Positions 27,462 to 30,155 of a DNA stretch of 64,000 bases are shown in pieces. The translations under genes and the position numbers were made by a program. The notes beneath the pieces were generated by a model, which saw nothing but the letters and a program-made list of their open reading frames with translations, searched no databases and had not been told where the DNA came from. Source of the stretch: Dongia sedimenti. GTDB taxonomy: Bacteria; Pseudomonadota; Alphaproteobacteria; Dongiales; Dongiaceae. The stretch is from assembly GCA_030715195.1 (NCBI GenBank), contig JAUYVI010000006.1, positions 310,001 through 374,000 of the forward strand, read 5' to 3'. Every line of letters starts with the position of its first letter. Position 1 is the first letter of the stretch.

Positions 27462-27572
27462 CAGCAGCGGGCCGGCGGTCCTGACTGCCGGCGGGCTGAA
27501 AATAGAAAAAGCATAGTCGCGGTGCGTTCGCGCGCCTGCGCCATGCTTGTGCAATGCGAGAAAGCGACTGCC

Positions 27573-29612
27573 ATGGTTGTTTCATCCAAGGCGGCGGTGG
27601 CCGCCTATGTCTCCGCGTTCCTGCGCGCGCTCGATCCAGCGTCGCCGGCAGGACGGAGATTGACCGGCTGGCTGCGGTACAACAGCAGCCTGCTCGGACT
27701 CGATTTCGAGGCCGCGATCCGCCCGGCGAAGCGCGCCGGGCGTCGGCCGCGCGCGCCGTCGGCGGATCGCCCGCTCTCTGGGCGCGCTTGGGCGAAGCTC
27801 GGGAAGACGCTCGACGCCATAGCCACGCGCGAAGCCTCGGCCCCGGACCCGATCGCGGAAAACTTCGCGGCCTTCGTCGATGCGATCGGCCTTTCCGTCG
27901 AGCAGGCGGCGGTGCTGCGCTTGGTATTCGAAGCCGCGCGCGACAGCACCTTCGATCGGCTCTGCGACGCCCTGGTGGAGTGCCGCGTCGCGGACAACTA
28001 TGGCCTGATCGCGCTCGGCCTCGGGACCGATTCCGGCGCGGTGGTGCGCGCCGCGAATAGCGCGAATCTCGCCGGTCTGATGAAGATCTATGGCGGGGCC
28101 GGCGAGCGGTTCAGCGCCTATATCCCCTACCGGGTCATCAATGCACTGCTGCCGCCGAACCACGGATTGGCTGCCATCGAACGCAGCCTGATCGGCGCGC
28201 CGATGCCGGCCGAGCTCACCCTGGCGGATTTCGACCACATCGGAAGCGAGTGCGATTTCCTGCTGCGGCTGCTGCGCAATGCGCTCGACCGGCGGAGGCC
28301 CGGCATCAACGTTCTGCTGGTCGGGGTTCCGGGAACCGGCAAGACCGAGCTCTGCAAGACCCTGGCCGCCGAGCTCCGCTGCGCGCTCTTCGCGATCGGC
28401 GAAGCCGATGATTCCGGCGCCGAGCCCGATCGCGGCGAGCGGCTGGATGCACTCAAGCTCGCTGCACCGCTGGCCGCGCGCCGCGGCAACGCGATCCTGC
28501 TGTTCGACGAAATGCAGGATCTGCTGGCCGACGAGTCACCCAACGGCAATGCCCAGAAGGCCGGGTCGAAGGTCTATTTCAACCGCATGCTGGAGCAGAA
28601 TCCGGTTCCCGTCCTGTGGACCAGCAACAGCATCCGTGAATGCGATCCGGCTTTCCTGCGGCGCATGACCTACATCCTGGAGATGCAGGCGATGCCGATC
28701 GCTGCGCGGGCGTCGATGCTCGAGAACGGCGCGCGGCAATGCGGTCTGCGCATCGACCCAGGTCAGGCCAAGCAGCTTGCCCGGCGCTATCCCGTGGCGC
28801 CCGCTATTCTGAAGGGGGCGGTGCAGGCGGTGGCGATTGCCGGCGGCAATGCGGAGGAGATCGACCTCGTGGCCGGGCCGATGAGCCGCTTCGTCGCCGG
28901 CCGTCGTGCCGTTGCACCGGCCAAGTCGGTACCGTTCCTGCCGGAGCTCGCCAACGCGGATATCGATCTCTCGATGATCGAGCGCGCGGCGACGGCATCG
29001 GCCGCATCCGAGCTGTCGCTCTTCTTCTATGGGCCGCCGGGGACCGGCAAGAGCGCTTTCGCCCGTCACCTTGCGGAAACGATGGCGCTCGAGCCGATGC
29101 TGCGGCGGGGCTCCGATCTGCTGTCGAAGTGGATTGGCGATACCGAGAAGCAGCTGGCCCGGGCCTTCGCCGAAGCGCGCAACGATCGGCGCTTTCTCAT
29201 CATCGATGAGGCGGAGCCGTTCCTGTGGAATCGCTCGGCCGAGAGCCGGAGCTGGGAAGTCTCAATGGTGGACGAGCTGCTGATCCAGATGGAGAGCCAC
29301 ACCTTGCCCTTCGCCTGCACCACCAACCTGCCGGAGGCGGTCGACTCGGCGGCACTGCGGCGCTTCAGCCTCAAGGTGAAGTTCGATTATCTGACGCCGG
29401 ACCAGACGGCCAAGGCCTACGCGCATTTCTTCACGCGCGAGGCGCCTCCGTCGCTGCGCCATCTGACGGCGCTGACGCCGAGCGATTTCGCCAGTGTGGC
29501 GAAGCGCTGCCGCTTGCTCAATCTGCCGATGGACCGCGACGCGCCGTTGCTGACGATGCTGGAGGGCGAGGTTGCCGGAAAGCGCCTGCCGACACGGAAG
29601 ATCGGATTCTGA
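27573..29612 (+). CDS. Tandem AAA+ ATPase with unknown N-terminal domain
   Basis: 679 residues. The first 230 residues are helical with no recognised domain. AAA domain 1 has Walker A GVPGTGKT near residue 250, Walker B ILLFDEMQDL and sensor-1 region LWTSNS. AAA domain 2 has GPPGTGKS near residue 487, Walker B FLIIDEAEPFL, sensor-1 CTTN and an arginine pair ALRRF. Both sites appear complete for ATP hydrolysis. The layout is that of Cdc48-like remodelling ATPases, but the N-terminal part is different. It stands alone; the next gene on the strand follows a strong terminator. Its target is unknown. Confidence 0.85.
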   Translation: MVVSSKAAVAAYVSAFLRALDPASPAGRRLTGWLRYNSSLLGLDFEAAIRPAKRAGRRPRAPSADRPLSGRAWAKLGKTLDAIATREASAPDPIAENFAAFVDAIGLSVEQAAVLRLVFEAARDSTFDRLCDALVECRVADNYGLIALGLGTDSGAVVRAANSANLAGLMKIYGGAGERFSAYIPYRVINALLPPNHGLAAIERSLIGAPMPAELTLADFDHIGSECDFLLRLLRNALDRRRPGINVLLVGVPGTGKTELCKTLAAELRCALFAIGEADDSGAEPDRGERLDALKLAAPLAARRGNAILLFDEMQDLLADESPNGNAQKAGSKVYFNRMLEQNPVPVLWTSNSIRECDPAFLRRMTYILEMQAMPIAARASMLENGARQCGLRIDPGQAKQLARRYPVAPAILKGAVQAVAIAGGNAEEIDLVAGPMSRFVAGRRAVAPAKSVPFLPELANADIDLSMIERAATASAASELSLFFYGPPGTGKSAFARHLAETMALEPMLRRGSDLLSKWIGDTEKQLARAFAEARNDRRFLIIDEAEPFLWNRSAESRSWEVSMVDELLIQMESHTLPFACTTNLPEAVDSAALRRFSLKVKFDYLTPDQTAKAYAHFFTREAPPSLRHLTALTPSDFASVAKRCRLLNLPMDRDAPLLTMLEGEVAGKRLPTRKIGF

Positions 29613-29880
29613 TCCCGCCTGTCATCGGAAAGCGACTTGACGTCGCCGGACAACAGGCGTACATCGCCGCCCTCCCGCACAGGTTGCGGGGTAACGTCGA
29701 GATCGAGAGAGCCAGAGAATGCGATTCGCGCACGAACATGCAGAGCCAAGGATGGCGCCGGCGAAAGCCGCGATCGCCGGCGCTCGCATTTTGCGCGCGC
29801 CGCGGCGGGATAATCCCGCTTCCGCGGGCTTGGAGGGTGCGATGACGCGGTAACGCGTCGCCGCAGAGGTCCAATCAGGA

Positions 29881-29925
29881 CCCCGCCGAGCCCCGCGCAA
29901 GCGGAAAGCTCCGGCGGGGTTTTTT
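29881..29925 (+). terminator. Strong rho-independent terminator
   Basis: CCCCGCC (29881-29887) pairs with GGCGGGG (29913-29919). Inside it GAGC pairs with GCTC across a one-base bulge, and CCGC-GCAA-GCGG forms an inner GNRA hairpin. Six T residues (29920-29925) follow at once. It separates the AAA ATPase transcript, or a small RNA, from the tRNA-rtcB unit. Confidence 0.85.
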
Positions 29926-29969
29926 GTTGTCTGAAACGCAACCGTGGAGTGCGCGGCTGCGAAGCAAAG

Positions 29970-30064: not shown

Positions 30065-30155
30065 CGGGGTGTAGCTCAGTCCGATCAGAGCGCTCGGTTC
30101 GGATCCGAGAGGCCAGGCTTGGACCATTGGGGTTCAAATCCTCGCACCCCGACCA
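30065..30155 (+). tRNA. Abnormal tRNA, anticodon CGG (Pro), with long variable arm
   Basis: A 91-nt cloverleaf can be drawn: acceptor CGGGGTG/CACCCCG, A73 and encoded CCA; D stem GCTC/GAGC; anticodon stem CTCGG/CCGAG with loop TTCGGAT (anticodon CGG); T loop TTCAAAT. The acceptor end and anticodon fit tRNA-Pro. Three things do not: an 18-nt variable region that folds as GGCCA-GGCT-TGGACC with one bulged A, as in type-II tRNAs; a D-loop AGTCCGATCA lacking the G18-G19 pair; and A37 in place of the G37 normal for tRNA-Pro. An 8+4 acceptor/T-stem fold is also possible. It lies 30 nt before rtcB. Confidence 0.7.

Follow-up and report, generated by a model that had tools for sequence, protein, structure and literature searches.

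A tRNA gene of unusual build lies directly before rtcB, the gene for an RNA ligase, in the 64,000-nt stretch of the Dongia sedimenti genome analysed here (the window; the genome is called G000), which raises the question of what such a tRNA does at such a place. The original prediction had suspected a functional link to RNA repair and had offered a long variable arm, an inserted segment processed by RtcB and a decoy of tRNA cleavage as possible keys to it. The suspected link is strengthened by the present analysis; the long arm, the insert and the decoy are not the best supported explanations. The anatomy of the sequence, sibling units elsewhere and the supernumerary status of the window tRNA were observed directly. 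With a confidence that falls just short of even, we favour a ribosome-attenuated operon that would be triggered by tRNA shortage and would make a replacement tRNA together with repair enzymes. The features of the locus are collected in Table 1.

Table 1. Features of the rtcB locus, in window positions
Feature	Position	Strand	Basis
Promoter-like site TTGACG-17-TACATC	29637..29665	+	TTGAC-17-TAnnnn pattern
Leader ORF of 33 codons, MAPAKAAIAGARILRAPRRDNPASAGLEGAMTR; the loop of hairpin 1 contains its stop codon	29752..29853	+	Sequence, comparison
Predicted antiterminator strand GCTTGGAGGGTG, complement of the terminator 5′ arm	29828..29839	+	Duplex of -15.1 kcal/mol
Hairpin 1, enclosing the leader stop codon	29838..29865	+	Sequence and fold
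Hairpin 2, GGTCC/GGACC	29868..29882	+	Read by eye
Intrinsic terminator of the attenuator	29881..29925	+	Sequence, fold, covariance model R1
Supernumerary tRNA-Pro(CGG), A37, encoded CCA	30065..30155	+	ARAGORN, Rfam, comparison with resident genes
18-nt variable region; about 30115-30127 is a 13-nt insertion relative to G015	30110..30127	+	Alignment with G015
rtcB, RNA ligase, 403 aa	30186..31397	+	PF01139, E 2.9e-131

A supernumerary tRNA-Pro(CGG)

The gene is the sole ARAGORN tRNA in the 64-kb window and was matched by Rfam RF00005 at 30065-30152 with 51.1 bits (cut-off 29), which ranks 45th among the 48 RF00005 matches of the genome. The acceptor, read by eye, consists of a 7-bp stem with C1:G72, A73 and an encoded CCA, C1:G72 and A73 being identity elements of tRNA-Pro; together with the cloverleaf and the CGG anticodon, these bases identify a tRNA-Pro(CGG). 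Also read by eye were the anticodon loop TTCGGAT with A37, GA at the usual GG place of the D loop and, in the 18-nt variable region, a possible 5-bp stem with one bulge. Of these traits, the encoded CCA, the Pro-type acceptor and anticodon, A37, the altered D loop and the 18-nt variable arm had been predicted and are confirmed, as are the gap of 30 nt between the tRNA end and the rtcB start codon and the identity of RtcB. The T stem contains G-U pairs. The energy of the cloverleaf is -34.2 kcal/mol with the variable-arm stem and -28.6 kcal/mol without it, the unconstrained minimum (-36.6 kcal/mol) is a different fold, and the folding energy is unremarkable (z of -1.46; 15 of 200 shuffles equally stable). 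Since G000 has tRNA-Pro genes with the anticodons CGG, GGG and TGG elsewhere, the window tRNA is supernumerary. A second, distant RtcB (36-37%) is encoded in the same genome at G000:C24:203462-204778.

Allo-tRNAs and type II tRNAs are known for a long variable arm and an unexpected anticodon, and the window tRNA resembles them in both respects. Unlike them, it combines a 7+5 acceptor/T arrangement with Pro-type C1:G72 and A73, and its arm is not conserved; the non-canonical 8/4 or 9/3 acceptor-T branch that marks allo-tRNAs is absent, the acceptor having 7 bp and the T stem 5 bp. At 30065-30152, where RF00005 matches, no match was obtained with RF02553 for a Y RNA (YrlA).

Beside G36 the window tRNA lacks G37, the target of TrmD, and has A37 instead. 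A37 is found in all five tRNAs linked to the leader units described below (two Pro, two Arg and one His), all of which read CNN codons and thus belong to the class with G36. Among the genes of G000 compared with them, G37 is carried by the resident ProCGG (L119), ArgACG (C24) and His genes. Since some other bacteria ordinarily have A37 in their Arg(ACG) and His tRNAs, only the Pro case is truly odd. In E. coli, trmD mutants adapt partly via A37 tRNAs recoded to CCG, as described in PMC8643618, which suggests that A37 replacements can work and that A37 backups could therefore relieve a loss of m1G37.

Among 61 genomes, the only strong match to the window tRNA outside G000 was found in G015, which belongs to the same family (75%, E 3.3e-12), and four further matches were weaker (E 2.6e-6 to 8.5e-4). 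The G015 copy, read by eye, has the loop start TTCGGA with A37, a 5-nt variable region and GG in the D loop, and the window arm therefore looks like a 13-nt insertion on the window side. The anticodon-stem pair is C28:G42 in G015 and T28:A42 in the window tRNA (by eye); the stem has therefore been kept through a compensatory change. A further tRNA-Pro(CGG) of G015 has the same sequence as the ordinary gene of G000, and G015 has no match to the window RtcB. Of the conservation in relatives on which the original prediction had counted, the fold thus held up in G015, through the compensatory pair, but the linkage to rtcB did not, and neither the arm nor the adjacency to rtcB is conserved. The copy without the arm rules out the long variable arm, formerly put forward as the key feature, as a conserved functional element, and the arm is probably not the point of this tRNA. 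No support was found for a removable insert spliced by RtcB. The D-arm/anticodon/T-arm pattern with CGG and A37 was matched in 2 of 385 genomes of the class, G000 included, in a sample that left out G015.

That the window tRNA is a decaying or recently acquired copy, for example from a phage, which stands here by chance, is quite unlikely. Its odd D loop, T-stem G-U pairs and insertion would suit such a copy, as would the lack of a match in 6 further genomes of the genus and the 68 of 74 aligned bases shared with the tRNA-Pro(CGG) of phiCbK among the phage tRNAs compared (62 of 77 for the resident gene). However, its stems are still paired and include the compensatory change relative to G015, the leader unit occurs with other tRNAs at repair loci, and tRNA genes are enriched beside rtcB in the best 80 of 589 loci. 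A phage origin, despite this similarity, is unproved because the resident tRNA also matches phage tRNAs. Two further candidate origins were rejected: a plasmid, with a single 48-base match of 83% among 72,556 plasmid records (E<=1e-3), and a genomic island by composition, with a GC content of 0.61-0.69 over 24-38 kb and no step at the tRNA.

Leader, attenuator-like element and sibling units

Upstream of the tRNA the anatomy of an attenuator is present, namely a leader ORF, an intrinsic terminator and an alternative antiterminator overlapping the end of the leader; this is sequence anatomy, for which the shuffle controls are weak. A gene for a tandem AAA ATPase (696 aa, window 27522-29612) lies directly upstream of the leader promoter. 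The TTGAC-17-TAnnnn pattern recurs upstream of the leader in all four tRNA-linked loci, and the whole 64-kb window holds 5 sites of the TTGAC/17 type on both strands (TTGAC, a spacer of 17 and at least 3 of 6 matches to TATAAT). By eye, a K-A/T-A/V stretch is similar among the leaders of the window, G015, G000:C2 and G014, and hairpin 2 has counterparts in C2 (GGTTCC/GGAACC) and G014 (GGTCTTC/GAAGACC). Within the window leader, another stretch (centre -47) pairs slightly better than the predicted antiterminator strand (-16.9 vs -15.1 kcal/mol). For the upstream element, nothing near gathering score was found in Rfam.

The alignment of the window with G015 continues upstream of the tRNA into this structured element, and the leader/attenuator unit precedes tRNAs at four places: Pro in the window, Pro in G015, Arg in G000:C2 and His in G014. 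A covariance model, R1, was built from the sequences of the window, G015 and G000:C2 and matches the window, one of its training sequences, at 29829-29926 with 93.4 bits. Over 17 genomes of the order, R1 found one further convincing copy, in G014, with 42.9 bits (E 2.8e-9 by a rough calibration). As the sole unit found by the model and not by selection, G014 is the main independent support. In the three-sequence alignment, covariation is no stronger than in shuffles, 161 of 500 of which reach its level, and a four-sequence alignment was not used for the model because its hairpins were out of register.

Matches of R1 in the order below 42.9 bits were left out of the counts; a 29.9-bit match in G006 sits between ABC-transporter-like genes, and 12 weak matches scanned for tRNAs yielded one with a tRNA (L190), on the opposite strand. 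Over 385 genomes of the class, searched with stricter Infernal filters, R1 gave only two weak matches beyond G000 (26.4 and 23.4 bits), and no ARAGORN tRNA was present at their loci. Over 84 sources, weak matches were located just upstream of rtcB in several loci.

RNA repair follows three of the four units. Besides rtcB in the window, the unit of G000:C2 stands before a second tRNA-Arg(ACG), which is followed on the same strand by a Y-RNA-like stretch (RF02553, 43.7 bits, E 2.6e-8, below gathering score), Ro60, Hen1 and Pnkp; the other ArgACG gene, on C24, is presumably the original G000 copy. The G014 unit precedes tRNA-His, then Y-RNA-like stretches and Ro60, with RlaP just upstream. The G015 unit leads into tRNA-Pro, a broken SEC-C-like fragment (by eye) and tRNA-Arg(ACG), and no intact repair gene was seen after it. 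Supernumerary copies are established for the Pro genes of the window and G015 and for ArgACG in G000, with G014 His and G015 ArgACG outside this set. It had been noted that no Ro60 gene is seen here, which holds for the window ORFs examined, but not for the genome, where contig C2 carries the Ro60/Hen1/Pnkp operon. The presence of the same kind of putative switch and of an extra tRNA of its own at this sister repair operon suggests that the cell may replace tRNAs while repairing broken ones.

Y-RNA-like sequences were also observed beside Ro60 at L179:11818-11953, L212:2300-2756, L213:7469-7599 and L037:4100-4960, with the T arm before the D arm by eye (a permuted tRNA module). The YrlA cut-off is exceeded by the copy at L213, and the matches in the sibling loci L179 and L212 are below gathering score.

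Antiterminator pairing was examined in 27 leaders, 4 of them tRNA-linked and 23 located before rtcB (from the best 80 of 589 rtcB loci). In 19 of the 27, against 5.2 expected, the stretch most complementary to the terminator arm is located 2-26 nt ahead of the leader stop; no probability is attached to this count, since the stops were chosen by eye and related sequences are numerous. The window and C2 leaders have their best complement elsewhere than in this zone. In an earlier, weaker test, only 5 of the 28 terminator-bearing rtcB loci had a duplex with z < -2 against shuffled segments.

At -4/-5 before the antiterminator strand, the amino acid of the linked tRNA is encoded in all four tRNA-linked leaders (window Pro CCC, G015 Pro CCG, C2 Arg CGA, G014 His CAT), a match that was noticed post hoc with anchors set by eye and for which permuting the labels among the four loci yields only 1 in 12. 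In the G015 leader, Arg CGA stands beside Pro CCG, and the pair matches both tRNAs there. The CCC at -4 of the window leader is not expected to be readable by a CGG anticodon; a CCG is located at -9. Of 22 other leaders, 2 encode Pro at -4 and 1 encodes Arg at -5. From general amino-acid frequencies, the chance of the codon match is roughly estimated at 1e-4.

A candidate circuit and its known counterparts

In the favoured attenuated operon, transcription would start downstream of the promoter-like site. With plentiful tRNAs, a ribosome would reach the leader stop and cover the antiterminator strand, the terminator would form and the operon would be off. If a tRNA were cleaved, undermodified or uncharged, the ribosome would stall a few codons before the stop, the antiterminator strand could pair with the 5′ arm of the terminator, and RNA polymerase would read through. 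The readthrough transcript would provide a structurally divergent spare tRNA, with A37, an altered D loop and a long variable arm, together with rtcB, the product of which would reseal broken tRNAs. From this arrangement we infer co-transcription and attenuation, charging of the tRNA with proline, and resistance to nucleases or independence of TrmD. More doubtful is the further proposal of a self-correcting circuit, in which the leader would count one tRNA by its codon, the operon would supply a damage- or TrmD-independent A37 replacement along with the mending enzymes, and the units would be tuned to Pro, Arg or His.

The his, trp and ilv attenuators comprise a leader ORF, an antiterminator, a terminator and cognate codons before the antiterminator, and the unit described here resembles them in the first three, with its candidate cognate codons as a possible fourth likeness. 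Unlike them, it would control a tRNA and repair enzymes instead of biosynthesis, and its candidate sensor codons are few and do not form a run.

Other parts of the arrangement are known separately, as RtcR repair operons, as spare tRNAs and rtcB in Anabaena and as nuclease-evading phage tRNAs. According to PMC7790460, the rsr-yrlBA-rtcBA operon of Salmonella is controlled by RtcR and induced by damaged tRNA; rtcB, Ro60 and Y RNAs are common to it and the loci studied here, but a sigma54 activator binds 5′ halves of cut tRNAs there, whereas a leader ORF with a terminator is predicted here and a full tRNA precedes rtcB. In Anabaena, according to PMC10272220, TrcR represses spare tRNAs and rtcB together and releases them under translational stress; in contrast to its 26 tRNAs on a megaplasmid, chromosomal rtcB and DNA-binding repressor, the present locus has one tRNA within the repair locus and an attenuator-like leader. 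For phages, PMC10264068 proposes that extra tRNAs with divergent anticodon loops replace cleaved ones. Like such nuclease-insensitive tRNAs, of which the tRNA-Pro(CGG) of Sphingobium phage Lacusarx also has A37 (sequence read by eye), the window tRNA is divergent in its loop; unlike those phage tRNAs, it is chromosomal and tied to repair genes.

Among the matches listed in the literature on RtcB and attenuators, on repair operons and on spare tRNAs, no report was found of a leader-attenuated operon joining a spare tRNA with RNA-repair genes, and the sensing of tRNA damage in bacteria without RtcR seems little explored there. If the favoured reading is true, a leader that reads stalls and releases a spare tRNA with repair enzymes would be a compact answer to this task, would go some way towards accounting for the tRNA genes next to rtcB in several lineages, and would provide chromosomal counterparts to the nuclease-evading phage tRNAs.

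tRNA genes and leaders at other rtcB loci

Within the best 80 of 589 rtcB loci, 7 have a same-strand ARAGORN tRNA or tRNA-like gene within 250 nt of rtcB, against an expectation of 0.62 based on how densely such genes occur in the rest of these loci, the tRNA-rich L073 being left out of this background (Poisson 4e-6). This comparison is a guide only, because the distance was set post hoc, the Asp genes of L044 and L048 are alike, and the genes of L101 and L112 are tRNA-like. Together with the sibling units at Ro60-Hen1-Pnkp and Ro60, it speaks for the functional link to RNA repair that had been suspected. In the class sample, rtcB was detected at E<=1e-30 in 31 of 385 genomes. A scan of 29 other loci of the class gave three ARAGORN calls, two on the opposite strand (L219, L222) and one on the same strand (L237), which is 289 nt upstream of rtcB in an apparent Y-RNA array. 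Compared with 7 of the best 80, one same-strand call among 29 indicates that the linkage of tRNAs recurs and is uncommon.

A role of the window tRNA purely in processing, with RNase P/RNase Z cleavage releasing the rtcB mRNA and any capacity to decode a by-product, is very unlikely. The distance of 30 nt from the tRNA end to the rtcB start would agree with such a role, and the layout in Methylotenera (L107), one of the seven loci, is similar, with a tRNA-Pro(TGG) 22 nt before the likely rtcB ATG and two other tRNA-Pro(TGG) genes in that genome. However, a processing signal leaves unexplained why different tRNAs stand behind one leader type, why A37 occurs in all five linked tRNAs, and why the tRNAs of L044, L048, L053 and L090 lie downstream of rtcB; that of L090, also among the seven, is a tRNA-Pro with A37 located 9 nt after rtcB.

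Use of the window tRNA as bait, a sacrificial or signalling mimic cut by anticodon nucleases in place of cellular tRNAs and not meant for decoding, is unlikely. Elsewhere, bait would fit the tandem tRNA-like pair at ten rtcB loci of Luteimonas, Lysobacter, Pseudoxanthomonas and kin, the second member of which has, by eye, 9 different anticodon loops in 10 loci and no clear CCA and keeps D and T arms in 9 of 10, L096 having another body. The YrlA tRNA-like domain has moreover been suggested as a possible competitive inhibitor of an anticodon nuclease by Hughes et al. (PMC7790460). The window tRNA, by contrast, still has a complete acceptor stem with A73 and CCA, as well as G35-G36 and a compensatory pair in the anticodon stem, and its A37 would alter rather than copy the usual target loop. 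The tandem pairs (L065, L072, L078, L080, L088, L093, L096, L098, L103, L116) lie at 2.5-3.5 kb within the locus, which places them some 1.5-2.5 kb ahead of rtcB.

As to the leader of the favoured attenuated operon, 28 of the best 80 of 589 loci carry a terminator within 330 nt upstream of rtcB; 25 of these 28 are alphaproteobacterial by record title, and 26 of the 28 have a candidate leader ORF under loose rules. A GAFTGA-type motif (rtcR, sigma54 activator) is absent from the six frames of the window, L176, L179 and L212; it occurs in 17 of the best 80 of 589 rtcB loci and in 1 of 26 loci classed as attenuator-like, a class that was assigned partly by eye and is confounded by taxonomy. In Caulobacter, Hyphomonas and others, many of the loci between L041 and L092 have an attenuator-like leader ORF and terminator within 330 nt before rtcB and no tRNA.

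Further tRNA genes were observed after rtcB. L048:6240-6912 holds a five-tRNA array straight after the gene, which includes a tRNA-Pro whose D loop is odd and an 87-nt type II tRNA that has a CAT anticodon on a body of the Tyr type. At L107:1634-1712 in Methylotenera, a tRNA with A73 and the anticodon ACA, which is unusual for bacteria, is located downstream of rtcB. Two tRNA-like genes with anticodon loops of 6 nt and 4 nt, read by eye, follow rtcB at L101:6385-6531.
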